NCBI RefSeq assembly: GCF_023897065.1
Contig: NZ_JAMHIV010000013.1
Span: forward strand, 124,001 to 188,000
Direction of reading: 5' to 3'
Length of the DNA stretch: 64,000 nt
Source of the DNA: Crossiella sp. SN42
GTDB lineage: Bacteria > Actinomycetota > Actinomycetes > Mycobacteriales > Pseudonocardiaceae
Shown: in pieces, positions 8,515-53,466 of the stretch
Layout of the letters: each line of letters starts with the position of its first letter
How positions within the stretch are numbered: position 1 is the stretch's first letter
Translations under genes and position numbers: made by a program
Notes under the pieces: model-generated
The model's input: only the letters and a program-made list of their open reading frames with translations
Database searches by the model: none
What the model was told of the DNA's origin: nothing

Positions 8515-9023
8515 CCGAGCTCCGCACCGCCCGCCTCGCTCTGCACCGCCCCGCGCCTGCCGACGTCGAGGCCATCCTGGCCATCCACGCCGACCCGCTG
8601 GCCTGCGCGCACAACCCCGCCGACGCGCTGGCCACGCTGGCCGAGGCCGAAGGGCTCTACCGGCGCTGGGACGCGCACTGGCGGCGGCACGACTACGGCT
8701 ACTGGGTGCTGCGCCGCTACCACGAGGCCGGCCCGATCGGCTTCTGCGGCCTCAAGGCCATGCGGCTGCACGGCAGGCCCGTGCGCAACCTGTTCTACCG
8801 CCTCGCCCCGGCCGCCTGGGGCCAGGGCCTGGCCACCGAGGCGGTCGCCGCCGTGCTCGACCAGGCGCGGGCACAGGGGGCGGACCCGCCGGTCATCGCC
8901 AGGGTCCGCCCGGCCAACCTGGCCTCACACCGGGTCGCGGCCGCCGCCGGGCTGCGGCGCGCGCCCCACCTGGACACCGGCGGCCCAGATGGTCCAGACC
9001 AGATTTACCAACTACCTACTTAA
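8511..9023 (+). CDS. GNAT-family N-acetyltransferase (RimJ/RimL-like)
   Basis: 170 aa. It opens with LRTARLALHRPAPADVEAI, the first strand and helix of RimJ/RimL-type GNAT proteins. It carries the acetyl-CoA-binding segment AAWGQGLATEAVAA (motif A, Q/RxxGxG/A variant) and a closing AxxVAAAAGL region where a small side-chain helix usually sits. The GTG start overlaps the asnB TGA (GTGA), so translation is coupled to asparagine synthetase. The acceptor substrate, whether a protein N terminus or a small amine, cannot be told from sequence. Confidence 0.85.
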   Translation: MTELRTARLALHRPAPADVEAILAIHADPLACAHNPADALATLAEAEGLYRRWDAHWRRHDYGYWVLRRYHEAGPIGFCGLKAMRLHGRPVRNLFYRLAPAAWGQGLATEAVAAVLDQARAQGADPPVIARVRPANLASHRVAAAAGLRRAPHLDTGGPDGPDQIYQLPT

Positions 9024-9217
9024 GTCACTTCCGCCAAAGCGCTCGACTGTGGCGAAATGGGTCCCGCAGTCGAGCTGAGCCTGTTGTCACCACCGCCGCC
9101 CGGAAGTGGTTATTGGGGCCACCCCTGCGCTTCGCCCTTCCGTGGTGCCCGGTGAAGTCCTGCTGCGAATTCGCGGGTCCCTGCCCGCGCATTTCCCTGT
9201 GCAGCGAGGAGCGTGTG

Positions 9218-38435: not shown

Positions 38436-38471
38436 ACGGCCCCGGCCCGCCGGGTGGCGGACCGGGGCCGT
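38436..38471 (-). terminator. Hairpin downstream of the candidate immunity gene
   Basis: Outer 10-bp stem ACGGCCCCGG (38436-38445) with 38462-38471 and an inner CCGCC/GGCGG pair. It ends the 42491-38479 operon before the FKBP gene. Confidence 0.7.
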
Positions 38472-38478
38472 GCGCTGC

Positions 38479-38751
38479 TCAGATCCAGGGCGCGAGCAGC
38501 CGGGTGAACTGCTCGTCGGTCAGGTTGAGCGGTCCTGGCTGGTGGAAGCCCTGCCAGGTCTCGGCCTCCAGCAGCACCTTGAGCGGGATGCCGAAGGCCC
38601 GCCGGAACGAGGCGATGAACAGCATGGTGGGCAGCTCGCCGAGCCGCTGCCGGAGCAGCTCCACGAGCTCGACCGCGCCCGCACCGTCGGCCTTCGCCGC
38701 GCGCAGCAGCTCAGCCGCGACCTCGATCCGGTCGGGTTCCCGCGTGGTCAC
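38479..38751 (-). CDS. Small acidic-helical protein, candidate immunity partner of the ALF-repeat protein
   Basis: 90 aa, soluble, all-helical: DRIEVAAELLRAAKADGAG, LVELLRQRLGELPTMLFIASFRRAF, LKVLLEAETW and LTDEQFTRLLAPWI. No family is recognised. The gene lies 26 bp after the giant ALF-repeat gene on the same strand and is preceded by GAGGAG 7 nt before GTG 38751, so it is well translated and co-transcribed. The order large secreted repeat protein, then tiny cytosolic protein is typical of polymorphic toxin/immunity pairs. That role is inference from context. Confidence 0.65.
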   Translation of the reverse strand: MTTREPDRIEVAAELLRAAKADGAGAVELVELLRQRLGELPTMLFIASFRRAFGIPLKVLLEAETWQGFHQPGPLNLTDEQFTRLLAPWI

Positions 38752-38777
38752 GATCGATCTCCTCACTGGTGCGCCGG

Positions 38778-41700
38778 TCAGGAGAACCGGACCTTCACCT
38801 TGGTGTACGCGCCGCGCGTGCCCTCGGGGGTATCCAGGAACTCGACCTTGGTGAAGCCGTACCTGCCCGCCATCTTCCCAGTGAAGGTGCCGCGGGCCGC
38901 GTCGTCGTCCGACTTGCCCGCCTTGATCAGCTCGTTGAACGTGTTGAGGTTGTCGACCATGCTCCCGCCGGCGATCCAGGCGCCGTCGACGGCCTTGACC
39001 TTCGCGCCGAAGTGGTCCATCGCGGAGCTGAAGAACTTGCCGCCGAGACCCGGTACGCCGGTGGTGTTCTGCACGGCCAGCGCCAAGTGGCCTGAGTTGT
39101 CCAGGGTGGCGAAGATCCCGTTCTTGTTGTCGGGCAGGAACATGCTGAACTCGGTGTCGGTGTTCTCGCCGAGCCGGGCCGACTTGGCCAGCAGTTCGGC
39201 CGAGCGCAGGATCCGCGCGGGCGGGATGACCGAGGCCGCGACCCACGCGCACGCCTCGGCCTGGCCCCAGCCGGTGTCGGTGGCGCACCGGATGAAGTCG
39301 TCGAGCATGCCCTTGGCCAGGGCGAGCAGGATCTGGCCGCTGACCACGGCGGTGTTGAACATCTGCTCGGTGGTGTAGTGGAAGTCGATCGGGCTGGTGC
39401 CGATCTCCACCCGGCGGCACTGGCCCTTGCCGGTGGCTCCCGGCGGGCAGTCGAAGGTGAAGAACCGCAGGGTGCCGGTGATGTGGTGGTCGACCTTGTA
39501 GAAACAGGTCGCCGAGCTGGCGCCGAAGCCGAGGCCGCTGCCCCAGCAGCGGGCCGACTTGGGGTCGACCGTCGGGGTGTCCTTCATGTTCTCCGGCACC
39601 TTCTCGATGCCGAAGGGGCTGACCTCGGTCTCCTTGGGGACCTCGCCGACGTTCTCCCGTTGTTCGCCGACCTGGTGGAACCGGGCCGCGGCGTCCTTGG
39701 CCTCCTGGGCGGCGCGTTCGGCCGCCTCGGCGTCCTTGCCTGCCTGGATGGCGTCGGCGCGGGCCTGGTCAGCGGCGCGCTGGGCCGCGGCGGCCGCGGT
39801 GTTCGCCCTGGTCGCCGAGGCCGAGGCCCGGGCGGCCGAGGCGTCGGCGCTGCGGGCGCTCTTGGCGGCGTTGGCGGCGGCGTCGCGGGCCCGCTTGGCC
39901 GACTGCGCGGCCTGGTCGGCTGAGCGCTGGGCGGCCTCGGCGGAGGCCTTGGCCGCGTCGGCGGCGAGCTTGGCCTGCTCGGCCGACTCCTGGGCCTTGG
40001 CTGCCCACCGCGCGGCCTCGTCGGCGGCCTGGCGGGCGATGGCCGCGTGCTCGGCGGCCAGGTTGGCGTTCTGCCTGGCCAGTGCCGAGGACTGGTCGGC
40101 CCTGGCCAGGTAGCTCTCGATCTGGGCGCGGTGGGTGGCGGTGTCGGCGTCGCGCAGCCGGGCCTGGGGCAGCTCGACGTGCAGGAAGCGGGTGAGGTAG
40201 CTGTCCGGGCCGGAGAGCGCGGCCTGCGCGCCCGCGGCCACCTCGCGCAGTCCGTCCCGCTGCGCCTCGGCCAGGATCTTGTTGACCTGCCTGCGGTCCT
40301 CGGCCTTGGCCGCGGTGAACCGGCCGGTCTCCAGGAACCGGTGCAGCGCCTCGGTGTCACCCCTGGAGTCGGCGTTGAGGGCCTCGTTGCCCGCGGCGTG
40401 CACCAGCGAGTCCGGTCCGGCCGCGGCCATCACCTGGTTGACCTGCTTGCGGTCGTCGTTCACCTTTCCGGGGTAGTTCCGCAGGCGCAGGAACTCCTTG
40501 ACCTGCTCGTGCGTTCCGGTTTGCGTGGCGAAGGCGGCCGCCTGCTGCGCGGGCCGGTCGGTAGATCCGGCGATGATGCCGAGCCCGGCCCGGTCGTCCT
40601 GTTCCACGGCCTGGCCGAGCGCGGTGCTGACGAACAGCCGCACCGCGGGGTCGGGGCCGCTCAGCGCGGTGGTGGCCGCGGTTTGCGCCCAGGGGCCGCC
40701 CCGGGTGAGCAGCCGCAGCGCGGCCGCGCGGCCGTCGCGCAGGGCGTCGGGCCCCGGCTTGGCGGCTTCGGTGAGCAGGCGCTGGGTCTCCTGGTCGAAG
40801 GTCTCGGCCTGACCGCCCTGCCAGCGGCGCTGGTCCTGCGCCTCGGCCTCGGCGCGGGCGGCCTCCTCGGCGTCCCGGACCGCCTGCGACTCCTGCTGTT
40901 TGACGCGTTCGTCGTCGGCGGCCCTGGCGGTCGCGGCGACCTGGTGCGCCTGGTCGGAGGCCGACTTCGCCTGCTGGGCGGCGCGATCGGCCTCGGTGGC
41001 CGCGGTGGCCGCTCGCCGGGCGGCGGCCTCGGCGTTCTCGTAGGCGTCCGCGGCGGCGATCGCGGCATCGGCGGCGGCCTCGGCGTGGCCGGCGGCGGAG
41101 CTGGCCGCGTCCCTGGCGTCGAAGGCGGCTCGCGCGGCCTGTTCGGCCAGTGCCTGGGTGCGGCCGGCGGCGCGGGCCGCCTCGGCGGCGGCCTGGCGGG
41201 CCCTGGCCGCTGCGCGTTCCGCCTCGGCCGCGCTGGCGCCCGCGCGCCTGGCCGCCGCGGCGGCGTCCTCGGCGGCCTTGGCCGCGGCGTCGGCGTGTCC
41301 GCTGGCCCCACGGGCCGCTTCGGAGGCCTTGCCCGCCTCGGCGACCGCGCGACCGGCGGCGTCGGCGGCGGCCGCGGCCTGTTTGGCCGACTTGGCCACG
41401 TCCCTGGCCTGCTCGGCGGCCACCCTGGCCGCGTGCGCCTTGGACTTGTCCCTGGCCGCGCCCGCGGCGGCGTCCTGCGCCCTGGCCGCGGCGCGCTCGG
41501 TCATGGACGCGGCGATCGCGGCCTGCCCGGCGGCGTTCGCGGCGACCCTGGCCGCGGCGTTGGCCCGGCCTGCCGCGTTGATCGCGGTCTGCGCGGCCGC
41601 GGCGGCGCCCTGGGCCGCGGTGGCCGCCCGGCTCGCCGCCTGCGCGGCCTTGCGCGCGTCGCCCTGGGCCGCGGCGGTCTCGGCGGCGGCCCGCTCGGCG

Positions 41701-42491
41701 GCCTCCTTGGCCTTGCCCGCGGCGGCCAGCGCCTGGTCGGCGTTGTCCTTGGCGATGTCGGTCTGCTCGGCGGCCCTGACCTGGGCGTCGGCGGCCAGTT
41801 CGGCCAGCCCGGCGACGGTCAGCGTCTCCTCGTCCCGCTGCACCGCGACCGGCCAGCCGCTGCGCAGGAACTCCCGGATGTCCTCCGCGCCGCCGTCCAG
41901 GGCGCGCTGGGCGGTGACGTGGACCGCGGAGCCCTCCTTGGCCGCGGCCAGGATCTTGTTGACCCGGATCCGGTTGTCCTGGTCCTCGGCGACCAGCCGG
42001 CCCTTGGCGAGGAAGGCCTCGACGTCGGCGTCGGTGCCGTCGAGCGCGGCCTGCCCCGCCTTGGCCAGCTGGGTGCCGCCGCGGGCGATCAGCTGGTTGA
42101 CCAGCCTGCGCTGGTCGTTGCGGTGCGGCTGCTGCCAGCCGGTGTCCAGGAAGGCCCGCAGTTCGGCCATCTTGCCGTTGAGCGCGGTGTCGGCCGCCGC
42201 CCGCACGGCGGGTCCGGAGGCGGCCAGCAGCCGGGTGACCTCGATCCGGGCGTCGTGCTCGGCGGCCACCGGACGCTGTTCGGTGAGGAAGCGCCGCACG
42301 TCCTCCTCGCTGCCCAGCAGCGCCGCCTCGGCGGCCCGCGCGGTGACCTGGCCGCCGGCCCGGTAGGCGGCCAGCACTTCCGCCCGGGAATGGGCCGGTG
42401 CCGGTGCGGCATTCACCGGTAGTGGCGCCAGCAAGCCCGCGCCCATGGTCAGCGCCGTCGCCAGGACGGCTGCACGTGTTATAGCTTTCAT
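38778..42491 (-). CDS. Giant secreted ALF-repeat protein, candidate polymorphic toxin
   Basis: 1237 aa. Signal peptide MKAITRAAVLATALTMG ending near NA/APA. Residues ~35-230 hold ALF-type repeats (VRRFLTEQRPVAAEHDARI; VEAFLAKGRLVAEDQDNRI; IREFLRSGWPVAVQRDEE). Then ~330 residues of Ala-rich helix, predicted coiled coil. A second ALF block lies at ~590-850 (VKEFLRLRNYPGKVNDDRK, LHRFLETGRFTAAKAEDRR), then a second Ala-rich coil to ~935. The last 300 residues differ: Cys pairs, a hydrophobic pre-toxin-like helix (QILLALAKGMLDDFIRC) and a C-terminal module (GHLALAV...VDGAWIAGGSMVDNLNTFNELIKAGKS...FTGKMAGRYGFTKVEF). I do not recognise its activity. A small helical gene follows. Confidence 0.85.
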   Translation of the reverse strand: MKAITRAAVLATALTMGAGLLAPLPVNAAPAPAHSRAEVLAAYRAGGQVTARAAEAALLGSEEDVRRFLTEQRPVAAEHDARIEVTRLLAASGPAVRAAADTALNGKMAELRAFLDTGWQQPHRNDQRRLVNQLIARGGTQLAKAGQAALDGTDADVEAFLAKGRLVAEDQDNRIRVNKILAAAKEGSAVHVTAQRALDGGAEDIREFLRSGWPVAVQRDEETLTVAGLAELAADAQVRAAEQTDIAKDNADQALAAAGKAKEAAERAAAETAAAQGDARKAAQAASRAATAAQGAAAAAQTAINAAGRANAAARVAANAAGQAAIAASMTERAAARAQDAAAGAARDKSKAHAARVAAEQARDVAKSAKQAAAAADAAGRAVAEAGKASEAARGASGHADAAAKAAEDAAAAARRAGASAAEAERAAARARQAAAEAARAAGRTQALAEQAARAAFDARDAASSAAGHAEAAADAAIAAADAYENAEAAARRAATAATEADRAAQQAKSASDQAHQVAATARAADDERVKQQESQAVRDAEEAARAEAEAQDQRRWQGGQAETFDQETQRLLTEAAKPGPDALRDGRAAALRLLTRGGPWAQTAATTALSGPDPAVRLFVSTALGQAVEQDDRAGLGIIAGSTDRPAQQAAAFATQTGTHEQVKEFLRLRNYPGKVNDDRKQVNQVMAAAGPDSLVHAAGNEALNADSRGDTEALHRFLETGRFTAAKAEDRRQVNKILAEAQRDGLREVAAGAQAALSGPDSYLTRFLHVELPQARLRDADTATHRAQIESYLARADQSSALARQNANLAAEHAAIARQAADEAARWAAKAQESAEQAKLAADAAKASAEAAQRSADQAAQSAKRARDAAANAAKSARSADASAARASASATRANTAAAAAQRAADQARADAIQAGKDAEAAERAAQEAKDAAARFHQVGEQRENVGEVPKETEVSPFGIEKVPENMKDTPTVDPKSARCWGSGLGFGASSATCFYKVDHHITGTLRFFTFDCPPGATGKGQCRRVEIGTSPIDFHYTTEQMFNTAVVSGQILLALAKGMLDDFIRCATDTGWGQAEACAWVAASVIPPARILRSAELLAKSARLGENTDTEFSMFLPDNKNGIFATLDNSGHLALAVQNTTGVPGLGGKFFSSAMDHFGAKVKAVDGAWIAGGSMVDNLNTFNELIKAGKSDDDAARGTFTGKMAGRYGFTKVEFLDTPEGTRGAYTKVKVRFS

Positions 42492-42566: not shown

Positions 42567-43025
42567 ATGAGCGCATTACTGCGGTTGGCCTATTTCGTGG
42601 CGGTCGTTGTTTCCGGCACGATTCTGGGCGCGGCCACGCCTGCTGCGGCGGCGGAGAACCCGCCGCCGGTGGAGGAGGACTACGCCTATCCGGGCGCGGA
42701 CAAGATTTTCGCCGAACGCGGTATCCGGCTGTTGAAGGGAAATGGCGTTATTCTGCTGACCACCTGCGTGCCGGGGCACGCCAACCAGATCGTGCTCAGC
42801 AGTTCCGCTTTCGCCGACCCGATTTGTTTCGTGGCCGGACCGGGTGCCGGATTTGTCAGCATGGACATTCCCGAGGTCTACTCGGTCAAGGGCGACAGCC
42901 ACCGCGGGTCGGTCACGGTGCGGGTCAAGGACGTCACCAGCACCTCGCCGATCACGCCGAACCGGTGGAACCCGGTCAACAACGGCGACGGCGGGACCCT
43001 GCTGGAGCTGCGCACCCAGCCCTGA
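42567..43025 (+). CDS. Small secreted protein of unknown function
   Basis: 152 aa, with a clear signal peptide (RLAYFVAVVVSGTILGAATPAAAA). The mature part (~120 aa) is beta-rich, with two Cys (LLTTCVPG and DPICFVAG) that likely form one disulfide. No motif recognised. Divergent from the ALF-repeat gene across 75 bp, so both may share a regulatory region; base composition at the start is AT-richer (GTTATTCTGCTG, GATTTGTTTCGTG). GAGGA lies 8 nt before ATG 42567. It could be a co-regulated effector, an adaptor or unrelated. Confidence 0.7.
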   Translation: MSALLRLAYFVAVVVSGTILGAATPAAAAENPPPVEEDYAYPGADKIFAERGIRLLKGNGVILLTTCVPGHANQIVLSSSAFADPICFVAGPGAGFVSMDIPEVYSVKGDSHRGSVTVRVKDVTSTSPITPNRWNPVNNGDGGTLLELRTQP

Positions 43026-43032
43026 GCGCGGC

Positions 43033-43581
43033 TCAGCCCAGCAGCTCCCTCAGCGCGGTCTCCACGGCGTTCGCCGAGGTCAGCCCCTTGACCAGGGTGC
43101 CGCCGGGGGCGATGACGGCCAGCAGCGGCGGTTCGGCCACGGCGTAGCTCCGGCCGACGGTCTGCTGCTGGTCGTCGTGGCCGACCGGATAGGGCACCTG
43201 GTGTTGCTCCAGGTAGCCGCGCAGGTCGGCCTCGGTGTCCCTGGCGGCGACCCCGAGGAAAGCCACCTTGTCCCGGTAGGTGTTCGCCAGTTCGGTGAGT
43301 TTGCGCTGCTCAGTGCCGCACTTGGCGCACCAGGAGCTGAAGAACACCACCACCAGAGGCCGGTCCTTCCACAGCGTGGCGGCGGTGACCTTGGTGCCGT
43401 CGGTGAGCGGCACGGTGAAGTCAGGGGCCGCACCCGCTTCTGGCGGCGGCGGGCGGAAGGTGACCCCCGGCGGCAGCGGGCCGGGCAGGGCGGCGGCCCC
43501 GCCGCGCGCGGGCGCGGGCGGCGGGGCCGCGGTGCAGGCGGCCAGCAGCGCCGCCAGCAGCAGGGCGAGGACGGTTCTCAC
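43033..43581 (-). CDS. TlpA-like thioredoxin-fold lipoprotein
   Basis: 182 aa. The signal ends at lipobox LLAAC, giving a membrane-anchored extracytoplasmic protein. After a Pro/Ala linker comes a thioredoxin/AhpC-TSA fold: PDFTVPLTDGTKVTAATLWKDRPLVVVFFSSWCAKCGTEQRKL, with redox pair CAKC, then VAARDTEADLRGYLEQHQVPYPVGHD and a cis-Pro (EPPLLAVI). It likely reduces or shuffles disulfides of exported proteins. GTG start overlaps the upstream lipoprotein stop (GTGA). Confidence 0.9.
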   Translation of the reverse strand: MRTVLALLLAALLAACTAAPPPAPARGGAAALPGPLPPGVTFRPPPPEAGAAPDFTVPLTDGTKVTAATLWKDRPLVVVFFSSWCAKCGTEQRKLTELANTYRDKVAFLGVAARDTEADLRGYLEQHQVPYPVGHDDQQQTVGRSYAVAEPPLLAVIAPGGTLVKGLTSANAVETALRELLG

Positions 43582-43997
43582 GTGGTCAATCCCACCAGGG
43601 GCGCCCGCTCGCCCAGACTCGGGTCGCGGGCCAGCTCGATCGGCGGCAGGTCGCCGACCAGCAGCCGGTAGCCGTCGGCGGCAGGCAGTTCGGCGGTGAA
43701 CTCGACCTGGCAGAACGTGGGCTCCCTCGGCACGTCGAGCTGCTCCTCGATGGCCTTGACCGCCTTGCCCGGCGGCAGCGTGCCCTCGGCCAGCCGCTTG
43801 CCCCCGGCGTCCTGCACGCGGAAGCCGGCCTTGGGGTGGATGGCCTGGTAGGCGCCGGTGCCGGAGCACTCGGCGCCCACCTCGCGCATCGCCCCGTCCC
43901 GGACGAGCAGCTTCACCGGCGCGGCGGTGGGGGCGGGCGTGCTCGCGCAGCCCGCCACCACCAGTGCGGTGAGCAGGATCAGGACAGGACGGTGCAC
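43578..43997 (-). CDS. Small lipoprotein of unknown function
   Basis: 139 aa with a signal and lipobox VAGC. The mature part, ~120 aa, contains two Cys (GAECSGTG and TFCQVEF) probably paired, and a beta-rich body ending PIELARDPSLGERAPLVGL. No family identified. The GTG start lies inside the 3' end of the M6 protease gene (19-bp overlap), and its TGA overlaps the TlpA-like GTG, so the three genes form one operon: metalloprotease, lipoprotein, thiol-redox protein. Confidence 0.75.
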   Translation of the reverse strand: MHRPVLILLTALVVAGCASTPAPTAAPVKLLVRDGAMREVGAECSGTGAYQAIHPKAGFRVQDAGGKRLAEGTLPPGKAVKAIEEQLDVPREPTFCQVEFTAELPAADGYRLLVGDLPPIELARDPSLGERAPLVGLTT

Positions 43998-45982
43998 GTC
44001 GCCGTCGCGGTCTTGCTCGGGTCGGACTCCGAGGTCGCGGTCAGCTTGACCGTGGCGGGCTCGACCGGTTTCGCGGTGGTGCGCTCCACGTTGACCGCCA
44101 CGTTCGCCTTCTCGCCGAACTTCGCCGTCGCGAGGGCGTTGGGCAGCTGGACCTGCCAGCCCGCGCCGCTGACCTCGGCCTTGAGCCGGTAGACGTCCGA
44201 GCGCAGGTGCGCGGCCGGGCTGCCACTGGCCTTGCCGGTGTTGGTCAGCGGGAAGGAGCACGCGGTCGCGCCGCGGTGCCCGATCCAGCCGGTGCGGGCG
44301 TTGTCCAGCTTGACGCCCCGGGTGTGCGGGCCAGCGCCGTCCAGGGAGCGGACCGCGACGGTGTAGGAGAGCACGCCCTGGGCGTCCCGCTTGATGTCGA
44401 GCACGTAGAAGTGCAGCCGGTTGTGGGTGTCGGTGTACTCGTAGATCGACTTGGACCCGGTGCCCGCCTTGAGCAGCGCGTCGGCCAGCTGGCGCGGGTC
44501 GCCCACGGTGACCTTCACCGGGGTGCCGTCCGGCTTGTAGTAGTCGACCAGGTTGATGTCCTGCGGGTTGGCGTCGATGACCCACTTGAACGGGGCGGCG
44601 TCGGCGTTCTTCGTCTTGGCCAGCAGCACGCCGCTGTCCGGGGTGAAGGAGTCCGCCCCCATCCGGTCCACGACCTCCAGGGTGTAGTTCTGGTAGCCGC
44701 GGCCGTCGCAGAGCGGATCCTTGGCCTGGCTGCACGCCGGGGCCTTGTCCCCGCCGGGCATGACCACGTTGATCCCGGCCAGCCCGCCGGGTCCCGGCTG
44801 CGCCGCGCGGGCGGTCACCGTGGCCACCGCGAGGCCGGAGGTGGTCAGCGTGCCGCGGTCCAGCCGCAGCACGTGCGCCTCGTCCACGATGCCGAGCTTC
44901 ATCTTGTTGCGCAGCATGTGTTGCGCGCCCATGGACGCCCCGGCCGTCGGTGGGATGAACCAGCGGGTGTGGGTGCCGCCGGGGCCGTTGAAGGTGCCGC
45001 GGCTGAGCATGTCCCACGGGCCGCTGTAGGCGCGCACCGGCGGGTTGCCGAAGGGGTTGTTGTAGTTGTCGCCGATGCCCAGGATGTGGCTGAACTCGTG
45101 CGCGTACACGCCCTGCCCCGAGCTCTCCGCCTGGGTGGAGGAGCCGCCGCCGGCGTTGGGCCAGATGGAGGCCGCGGCCTTCCACGAGGTCCACTCCACG
45201 TAGCGGGTCTTCGCCCAGTTCGGGAGGTTGGGGTCGGGCGGGCCGAAGGAGTCCGGCACGTCCTCCTTCTTGGCGAACATCATCGGCCCGAACTCCTGCC
45301 AGGTGCCCGACTCGTCCTGTCCCGCGGAGAGGAAGAAGACGAAGTCGAAGCCCTTGGGCACCTCGGTGCCGACGTCGTCGCGCCAGGCCTTGCCGGCGTC
45401 GGTGCGCAGGTCCTTGGTGCAGTTGGACCCGGCCGGGCAGGCGCCGGAGCCCTGGAACTCCATCGCGTACTCGTAGGACTTGCCGGGTAGCTGGTACGCG
45501 CCGAAGGCCTTGAGGTCCACGCCGAAGCGGCCGCCGGAGTCCTCCATCCAGTACTCGTTGATGGTGTGCCCGTTGTTGATCTTGCCGGGCTTGTTGAGGA
45601 AGTCCTGGTAGAACTGCGCGACCTGGGCGCGCGGGATGTTGTTGGCCAGCTGGGTGGGGTTGCCGAAGACGGTGGACTTCGGTGGCTGGGTGACCGCGAA
45701 GGGCTGGTCGGGGTAGTCGACGAGGACGAGCGCGCCCTTGAACATCCGCTTGGTCGGCTTGCGCGCCGGGTTCGCCCAGTCGGTGCCCGGCGGCTTCTTG
45801 TAGTCCGACCACGTCATGTCAGCGGGGTTCTCCCACTGCTGCGGGTCGATCGGCGCGAGGGAGACCGGCGAGCCCCACCCGGCGGGCGCGGCGGCGGCCG
45901 TGCCCGCCACCGACACCGACAGGGCGGCGGCCAGCACGAGGGCTCCGGTTCGCCTGACCCGGAAACGACGACGTAGCTGCAT
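43979..45982 (-). CDS. Secreted M6-family metalloprotease (immune inhibitor A-like)
   Basis: 667 aa. The Arg-rich signal MQLRRRFRVRRTGALVLAAALSVSVAGTAAAA includes RR and may go by Tat or Sec. The catalytic domain contains KRMFKGALVLVDYPDQPF, INEYWMEDSGGRFGVDL and the zinc site YAHEFSHILGIGDNYN (HExxH, with the third ligand likely D/G region). SGPWDMLSRG follows as Met-turn. The C-terminal ~300 residues are beta-rich domains. M6 proteases degrade host or matrix proteins. Start ATG 45982, before the signal; GAT(C)C(T)AGG lacks a strong ribosome site. Confidence 0.92.
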   Translation of the reverse strand: MQLRRRFRVRRTGALVLAAALSVSVAGTAAAAPAGWGSPVSLAPIDPQQWENPADMTWSDYKKPPGTDWANPARKPTKRMFKGALVLVDYPDQPFAVTQPPKSTVFGNPTQLANNIPRAQVAQFYQDFLNKPGKINNGHTINEYWMEDSGGRFGVDLKAFGAYQLPGKSYEYAMEFQGSGACPAGSNCTKDLRTDAGKAWRDDVGTEVPKGFDFVFFLSAGQDESGTWQEFGPMMFAKKEDVPDSFGPPDPNLPNWAKTRYVEWTSWKAAASIWPNAGGGSSTQAESSGQGVYAHEFSHILGIGDNYNNPFGNPPVRAYSGPWDMLSRGTFNGPGGTHTRWFIPPTAGASMGAQHMLRNKMKLGIVDEAHVLRLDRGTLTTSGLAVATVTARAAQPGPGGLAGINVVMPGGDKAPACSQAKDPLCDGRGYQNYTLEVVDRMGADSFTPDSGVLLAKTKNADAAPFKWVIDANPQDINLVDYYKPDGTPVKVTVGDPRQLADALLKAGTGSKSIYEYTDTHNRLHFYVLDIKRDAQGVLSYTVAVRSLDGAGPHTRGVKLDNARTGWIGHRGATACSFPLTNTGKASGSPAAHLRSDVYRLKAEVSGAGWQVQLPNALATAKFGEKANVAVNVERTTAKPVEPATVKLTATSESDPSKTATATCTVLS

Positions 45983-46043
45983 GAACCCGGATCCTAGGAA
46001 CCCCCTGGCGGGCAACCCAGCCGCCGAAGGGACTGTGTCCCGC

Positions 46044-51798: not shown

Positions 51799-53466
51799 AT
51801 GTCCTCGACCACCCGGCTACCCGCCGGACTGCTCGCCGTGCTGATCGCGCTGCTGGCCGCGCCGACCGCGCAGGCGGTCAGCGGCGCTCCGGTGCCCGAC
51901 GGCGGCCACCGGTTCACCGTCAAGCTGGACACCGGCGACGGGGCTCGCGCCTGCTCCGGCGCGCTCGTCGACCCGCAGTGGGTGCTCACCGCCGCCTCCT
52001 GCTTCACCTTCGAGCCGGGGGAGACCCTGCGGCCCGGCCCGCCGGGCAGGCCCGCGCGGGCCACGGTCGGCCGGACCGCGCTGTCCCAGACCGGCGGCCA
52101 GGTCCTCAGCGTGGCCTACCTGGAGCCGCGCGCGGACCGGAACGTGGTGCTGGCCAAGCTGGCGCACCGGGTCCTGGACGTGCCGGTGGCGCCGATCGGC
52201 GGGGCGCCGGCGGCGGGGGAGAAGGTGCGCGTGGCCGGGTTCGGCCGCACCGCCACCGAGTGGACCCCGGACCGGTTGCACGCCGCGCCGTTCACGGTGA
52301 GCGCGGTCGGCGCGACCACGGTCGATCTCACCGGTGACGGCGCGAACACCGGTGTGTGCAAGGGAGACTCGGGCGGTCCCGCGTTCCGCGAGCGGGACGG
52401 CCGGGCCGAGCTGGTGGCCGTGCACCACACCTCCTGGCAGCGCGGCTGCCTCGGTGAGACCGAGCAGCGCAACCTGGCGGTGGAGTCCAGAGTGGACGAT
52501 CTCGCGGGCTGGGTGCGCGAGCGGATCGCCGTCGACGACCCGGATCCCGGTCCCGGCAACGGCCCCGCCGCGCTGGCCGCGGGCGATCAGCTCAACTTCT
52601 TCGGCCGCGGCACCGACAACCAGCTGCACCGCTGGTGGTATGCGCCCGGCCAGCCCACCCAGCGGGAGGTGCTGGGCGCGGGGATCGCGGGCAAACCGGC
52701 CGCGGTGCTCTACCGCGACCAGCTGACCGTCTTCGCCAGGGGCGCGGACGGCACGCTGCGGCACTGGTGGCACGACGGCACCCGGTTCCACCACGACGTG
52801 TGGGGCGAGGGACTGGCCGGTGACCCGACAGTGTTGCTGTACAAGGGAGAGCTGACCGTCTTCGCCAGGGGCACCGACGGTTCGTTGAAGCACTGGTGGT
52901 TCGACGGCCAGCTGCGCCACGACACCTGGGGCACTGGTCTGGCCGGCGATCCGGTGGCCACGCAGTTCGGCGAGGAGCTGACCGTGTTCGCCCGCGGCGG
53001 CGACAACAGCCTGCGGCACTGGTGGTTCAACGGCAGCCTGCACAGCGACACCTGGGGCACCGGCATCCTGGGCAACCCGGCCGCGCTGGTCTACCGCAAC
53101 GAGCTGACCGTCTTCGCCAGGGGCACGGACGGTTCGCTGAAGCACTGGTGGTTCAGCGGGAGCCTGCGGCACGACTCCTGGGGGCTGGGCATCAGCGGCA
53201 ACCCGGCCGCGGTCGTCTTCGGCGACCACCTCACCGTGTTCGCCCGCGGCAGCGACAACAGCTTGCAGCACTGGTGGTTCGACGGGCAGCTGCACCGGGA
53301 CTCCTGGGGCGGCGGGGTGACCGCGACGCCGAGTGTCACGGTGTACCGCGGGCAGGAGCTGACCGTGTTCGCGCGCGGGGACAACGGCGGTCTGGAGCAC
53401 TGGTGGTTCGTCGCGGGCGGCGCGGCGCACCAGCGGGACTCCTGGGGCGCGGGGCTCCAGGACTGA
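51799..53466 (+). CDS. Secreted trypsin-fold pseudo-protease fused to a seven-repeat propeller lectin-like domain
   Basis: 555 aa. Signal ends near AQA (26). The trypsin fold (~27-235) keeps Ser191 (CKGDSGGPAF), but the His position is Ser67 (WVLTAASCF; family reads AAHC) and the Asp position is probably Asn115 (DRNVVLAKL), so the triad is broken. A linker (DDPDPGPGNGP) joins seven ~43-residue repeats (e.g. LTVFARGTDGSLKHWWFDG...DTWGTGLAGDP), resembling PLL-type seven-bladed propellers that bind sugars. Repeats start with DQLNFFGRG and end at the C terminus. The likely role is glycan or surface binding rather than cleavage (inference). ATG 51799 follows GGGGGAGAG. Confidence 0.88.
   Translation: MSSTTRLPAGLLAVLIALLAAPTAQAVSGAPVPDGGHRFTVKLDTGDGARACSGALVDPQWVLTAASCFTFEPGETLRPGPPGRPARATVGRTALSQTGGQVLSVAYLEPRADRNVVLAKLAHRVLDVPVAPIGGAPAAGEKVRVAGFGRTATEWTPDRLHAAPFTVSAVGATTVDLTGDGANTGVCKGDSGGPAFRERDGRAELVAVHHTSWQRGCLGETEQRNLAVESRVDDLAGWVRERIAVDDPDPGPGNGPAALAAGDQLNFFGRGTDNQLHRWWYAPGQPTQREVLGAGIAGKPAAVLYRDQLTVFARGADGTLRHWWHDGTRFHHDVWGEGLAGDPTVLLYKGELTVFARGTDGSLKHWWFDGQLRHDTWGTGLAGDPVATQFGEELTVFARGGDNSLRHWWFNGSLHSDTWGTGILGNPAALVYRNELTVFARGTDGSLKHWWFSGSLRHDSWGLGISGNPAAVVFGDHLTVFARGSDNSLQHWWFDGQLHRDSWGGGVTATPSVTVYRGQELTVFARGDNGGLEHWWFVAGGAAHQRDSWGAGLQD

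Follow-up and report, generated by a model that had tools for sequence, protein, structure and literature searches.

A probable umbrella toxin locus in Crossiella sp. SN42 with a mobile C-terminal tip and a linked small partner gene

The window analysed here, a stretch of 64,000 nucleotides from Crossiella sp. SN42 (contig NZ_JAMHIV010000013.1, positions 124,001 to 188,000), contains a gene for a 1237-residue exported protein (umbC; 38778..42491, minus strand) followed on the same strand by a gene in the umbD position encoding a 90-residue helical protein (38479..38751). Umbrella (Umb) particles are a secreted weapon of soil actinobacteria acting against related bacteria (Zhao et al., 2024, PMC11062931). 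It is very likely from the comparisons below that this is an Umb locus, in which the C-terminal tip of UmbC would be the toxic payload and the 90-residue protein its blocker. The first-pass annotation overlooked umbB and the umbA-like gene and put the pair forward as the best candidate for an undescribed system, a view that is not supported, the carrier being an UmbC with an adjoining umbB and so part of a system already described in PMC11062931; the payload itself might be new.

Using phmmer, the sole solved structure matched by the 1237-residue protein at E 0.001 was 8w20_A (E 5.8e-92, residues 17-939), with Ala-rich sequence making up much of the stalk part of the alignment. Entries 8W20 and 8W22 were deposited with the study of the S. 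coelicolor (Streptomyces coelicolor) Umb particles and UmbC1 (PMC11062931), and from homology and length chains A, B and C of 8w20 are probably UmbC1, UmbB1 and UmbA1, although the printed molecule names differ. The neighbouring divergent gene (42567..43025, plus strand) encodes a small secreted adaptor homologous to 8w20_B (E 2.2e-13), the matched stretch beginning near the signal peptide, such that umbB lies within the ten genes taken as the limit for assigning an UmbC. There are five umbB matches in the genome with the runner-up sitting beside a paralogous umbC.

The umbA-like gene of that paralogous locus (L020:4061-5842), directly beside the pair, encodes a protein matching 8w20_C (E 1.9e-46) and related at 44% to the 555-residue product of an umbA-like gene in the window (51799..53466, plus strand). 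The window protein has a trypsin-like domain (Pfam Trypsin, E 2.7e-19) and DUF346 repeats, which we take to be a lectin. Trypsins carry TAAHC where this protein has TAASC, its GDSGG motif being present, and judged from the motif alone the triad is incomplete; a trypsin-like domain lacking the full triad joined to a lectin, encoded nearby or as an orphan, is the combination by which UmbA is recognised. A stretch in a genome of the same genus (L021:1-1751, G003) resembles the umbA-like gene by eye, and 13 genome stretches match an UmbA-like query, several over the trypsin part only.

The earlier description of an exported ALF-repeat protein with two repeat blocks separated by Ala-rich coiled coils and an adjoining small helical gene agrees with the architecture found. 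PF03752 (ALF) was the only Pfam family in the protein (E 7.8e-45, seven stretches), while an iterated profile started from a single repeat of the protein, in a search of this sequence alone, identified eight repeats each at E <= 3e-11 with the next best stretches at E 0.04 or worse. The first four occupy residues 45-69, 85-118, 131-164 and 177-212 (set 45-212; 41856..42359) and the second four residues 592-623, 641-669, 684-723 and 736-770 (set 592-770; 40182..40718), all features of umbC lying on the minus strand. The first stalk segment (residues 226-560, 47% Ala; 40812..41816) is a coiled coil by homology and the second (residues 801-945, 44% Ala; 39657..40091) is identified by homology to 8w20_A and composition. 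There follow a pre-toxin linker (residues 946-1119; 39135..39656), part of which recurs in a protein of genome G033 that is Rhs-like by eye, and the toxin-like tip (residues 1120-1237; 38781..39134).

The small gene starts with GTG, 26 nt after umbC, behind a GAGGAG ribosome-binding site (38759..38764, minus strand), and has a codon-position G+C of 0.75/0.45/0.93. On its 3′ side a 16-bp GC-rich hairpin without a T run (38436..38471, minus strand) is a possible terminator, the 60-nt stretch that holds it giving -48.7 kcal/mol. The two genes have orthologues in G003, at 70% over the 228 residues of the C-terminal query and 80% for the small protein, and paralogues on another contig of the window's own genome, at 53% and 42%, respectively, which is more than chance would give; in G001 and G002, of the same genus and sample, neither the umbC C terminus nor the small protein was matched.

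The tip is a mobile module. It was detected in 6 of 150 genomes of relatives, in at least 9 of 397 genomes of the order, at least 3 of 396 of the phylum and, within a single genus of the class (g83, which we take to be Streptomyces), at least 11 of 295. These samples overlap, with the window's own genome included in the counts for relatives, order and phylum, and a seventh genome matched by the C-terminal query (G033) was dropped as its match was to the pre-toxin part. Among genome contigs an alignment query found a single relative, in Streptomyces sp. NRRL F-5126 (L047), whose carrier runs off the contig, and a single-protein query of the contig collection found none. No relatives of the window C terminus or small protein were found in plasmids, none of the L065 tip in phages and plasmids, and none of the tip in viral contigs, phages not having been searched with the partner.

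In all, 24 tip loci were assembled, of which 19 have the tip at the C terminus (the window, L020, L021, L022, L023 with a broken tip, L025, L047, L048 and L064-L074) and five have it inside giant frames (L024, L049-L052). Pfam typing of the window protein and of 12 other proteins or pieces placed the tip on ALF carriers (the window, L020, L021, L022 and L070), on an RHS protein (L064) and one combining RHS with a type VII secretion system (T7SS) signal (L065), on ricin lectin proteins (L067, L069 and L071, and L072 and L025 which also have RHS) and on PT-HINT proteins (L067, L048, L072 and L025); at L023, L066, L068, L073 and L074 the carrier was assessed by eye, using the sequence that precedes the tip. 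The same C-terminal module with swapped N termini, which had been proposed as a check, is thus found on Rhs/T7SS and HINT proteins (L064, L065, L048 and others), and with a small-gene homologue downstream at 18 of the 19 C-terminal tip loci the suggested layout of a polymorphic toxin with a small partner stands.

The giant frames (L024 in G144, L049 and L050 in G778, L051 in G732 and L052 in G698) belong to one family, reported at up to 20,955 aa. Since a 4659-aa piece of L024 holds Peptidase_M3, Gln_amidase (a papain-fold toxin), Fic, Abhydrolase_8 and LuxR-type HTH domains, these frames may be multi-effector proteins.

The tip has no match among known families at a convincing level, with nothing better than E 0.034 in Pfam for 23 members, no match in NCBIfam for 13 members or in PADLOC for three tips, and nothing better than E 0.088 when tip profiles were compared with solved structures. 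For the partner the best Pfam value over 18 members was E 0.14, and the window protein alone gave E 0.16 in NCBIfam and nothing in PADLOC; five proteins searched against PHROGs gave E 0.13 or worse only. The partner profile did hit two solved structures, 8v2d ("O43_129 component A", E 1.9e-5) and 7mcd ("AI-designed TIM-barrel", E 5.2e-4), with the rest at E 0.16 or worse. 8v2d is presumably a designed protein like 7mcd; both were set aside as helix-composition matches and no function was drawn from them.

The remark in the first-pass annotation that the C-terminal domain was not one it recognised holds for Pfam, NCBIfam, PADLOC and solved structures compared by sequence, and is tempered by the 77 UmbC toxin families, many of them new, that are reported in PMC11062931. 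The tip may be one of these and is not claimed as undescribed. It is not named in the available part of a 2025 paper (PMC13274773), in the ALF passages of a 2012 survey (Zhang et al., 2012, PMC3482391) or in the other literature found, where coverage was thin on subscription journals and excluded supplementary tables. That tip and partner form an undescribed toxin-immunity family, one whose chemistry depends on no conserved acid, His or Cys and which moves as one cassette among umbrella particles, T7SS Rhs and HINT/ricin-lectin proteins, the tip alone also entering giant actinobacterial multi-effector proteins, can be put forward only tentatively and is open to more doubt than belief.

In the 23 tips 13 positions are at least 90% conserved (G15, G31, G43, N62, F66, N67, A79, T83, T85, G86, G93, G105 and F117), with position 87 being K in 19 and R in two. 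Acidic residues, His and Cys are nowhere close to invariant, the best being E77 (17/23), D12 (16/23) and H41 (15/23), which argues against a metal-dependent nuclease, a metallopeptidase or a papain-type toxin of the usual kind; our leaning is towards a ligand-binding or transferase-like enzyme. The fold looks alpha+beta by eye. A GNAT-fold acetyltransferase toxin is unlikely. By eye, the succession of strands and helices recalls GNAT, as does a GF motif ahead of two paired strands, and the GNAT motif is Q/R-x-x-G-x-A, at the place of which L022 has QGIGRA. A profile comparison of the tip with 30 GNAT proteins from the same genome, in which the GF motifs of both profiles fall in register, gave E 0.48, marginally better than the controls made from the tip (E 0.76-0.96 for six column-shuffled profiles and 0.98 reversed), but over nine columns with a probability of 0.1%, which is not significant. 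The unrelated partner family scored E 0.39 in the same comparison while two halves of the GNAT set found each other at E 3.5e-9, and no GNAT is among the eight Pfam families listed for the 23 tips at E 5.

The small partners, first picked by eye as helical open reading frames (ORFs) of 75-100 aa beside the tip at 18 of the 19 loci, form one family. An iterated search from three seed proteins recovered the partner strongly at 10 of the 19 loci with L070 marginal (E 0.011-0.044), and profile-profile comparison joined group 1 with group 2 (E 2.9e-6) and with group 3 (E 9.4e-5), groups 2 and 3 being joined more weakly (E 0.0014) against reversed controls of 0.2-0.5. So as not to depend on picking by eye, each clade in turn was left out and the profile of the remaining clades run against every ORF of its loci (272 ORFs in the 19 loci overall). 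The expected partner ranked first in all 12 tests, which took in 18 loci (E 1e-24 to 1.1e-4). The weakest values were 1.1e-4 for L023 and, when L070 and L047 were withheld as a pair, 8.9e-5 and 1e-4; no competing ORF reached an E below 1. Tip and partner distances are correlated (Mantel r 0.88 for 17 pairs with L023 left out; r 0.94 for the 12 pairs of L047 and g83; 0 of 10,000 permutations in each case).

The partner family also occurs apart from the tip. An orphan homologue is present in G003 (L029), and others lie near a gene we take to be rlmN-like, at about 30 nt in G086 (L027) and G056 (L028) and at 1.1 kb in G003 (L030), giving three genomes of two genera; the four stretches (L027-L030) had no tip match, and profile-profile comparison places these orphans in the partner family (E 4.5e-20). 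Four of the eight genomes matched by the small-protein search (G117, G134, G142 and G148) were set aside, their matches lying inside longer TadA ATPase-like frames. At L131 (G1079) a 40-aa tip-like stretch (1373-1492, E 1.9e-4) directly precedes a partner gene that would otherwise be an orphan, and at L135 (G939) the partner-family domain runs some 100 residues further in frame, a possible fusion. Such orphan genes may record past exposure to these toxins.

A role for the small protein as a chaperone or adaptor loading the tip for export, in place of immunity, would equally place its gene next to the tip and let the two co-diverge, the data implying binding at most. It is nonetheless quite unlikely, since the partner goes with the tip whether the carrier is of the ALF, T7SS-signal Rhs or HINT type and so follows no single export route, and since orphan copies exist that have no intact tip nearby, as is usual for immunity genes. 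A partner that tracks the tip and not the carrier fits immunity better than a delivery chaperone. A non-toxic tip, serving UmbC as an attachment or processing domain with the small protein as a secondary structural partner, is highly unlikely, for while the tip, a putative toxin, has no recognised catalytic motif, it is an exchangeable C terminus on unrelated carriers and follows HINT and Rhs cores, the usual place of polymorphic toxins.

By analogy with the described particles, UmbC would be exported, its eight ALF repeats forming the ring and its two Ala-rich coils the stalk, and UmbB would bridge the ring to the UmbA lectins, which would choose the target cell. The C-terminal 118-residue tip would be the toxic payload, and the 90-residue protein would stay in the cytoplasm of the producer and bind and block the tip, making its gene probably an immunity gene that protects the producer. 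By eye, the small protein lacks both an export signal and a strong membrane segment (hydropathy over 19 residues at most 1.4), which makes a cytoplasmic target the simplest guess, and the tip would most likely act in the cytoplasm of a related actinobacterium.

Several observations weigh against a toxin and immunity pair delivered by an umbrella particle. Co-divergence of tip and partner follows equally from joint inheritance and from co-adaptation. The absence of the small gene from homologous loci, named beforehand as a refutation, was seen at one of the 19 C-terminal tip loci, L022 (G086), where an ALF-type carrier has the tip with no partner homologue in its 14-kb stretch; the five giant-frame copies had no partner match in the stretches fetched. 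The partner profile matches 18 of 295 g83 genomes, of which 11 are the 11 tip genomes, matched at the tip locus and no independent test because those partners are rows of the profile, while the other seven, among them L131 with its 40-aa tip-like stretch, have no intact tip within 1.5 kb, so that the family may have other roles. At the window locus the umbA-like gene is 8.8 kb from umbB, and no RR is found in the first 35 residues of the umbC product, whose N terminus is Sec-like by eye, whereas three S. coelicolor UmbC proteins carry a twin-arginine signal (PMC11062931).

At L022 a different ORF of 165 aa follows the tip (8662-9156), with no Pfam match at E 0.01, possibly a second, unrelated immunity protein. 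Near the umb genes of the window is a gene for a secreted M6-type metallopeptidase (43979-46015, minus strand; Pfam E 4e-8), adjoined by one for a thioredoxin-like protein (43033-43869).

The analysis adds an umbrella locus together with a gene that probably gives immunity, and it ties one payload to several delivery platforms. The route by which umbrella toxins with targets in the cytoplasm get into cells is posed as an open question in PMC11062931, and the natural tip-partner pairs could be used to address it. A toxin domain outside known families and without the usual catalytic residues could, if its toxicity is real, hit a new target.

Compared with known systems, the tip occupies the same position, the end of UmbC, as the 77 families of UmbC toxins in Zhao et al. 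(2024), which include 4TM tox and Ntox71, while the particles of S. coelicolor bear a different tip (PMC11062931). The partners described there are an Imm1-type UmbD1 and an Imm88-type UmbD3, whereas the 90-residue partner here lacks a Pfam match (PMC11062931). The twin-arginine signal of the S. coelicolor UmbC is not seen here, and the umbA-like gene of this locus lies 8.8 kb away. The Rhs/T7SS and HINT polymorphic toxins of actinobacteria, a class covered by the survey of Zhang et al. (2012, PMC3482391), use other carriers and export routes than the ALF ring of the window protein, yet five of their kind (L064, L065, L025, L048 and L072) bear the same tip and partner.

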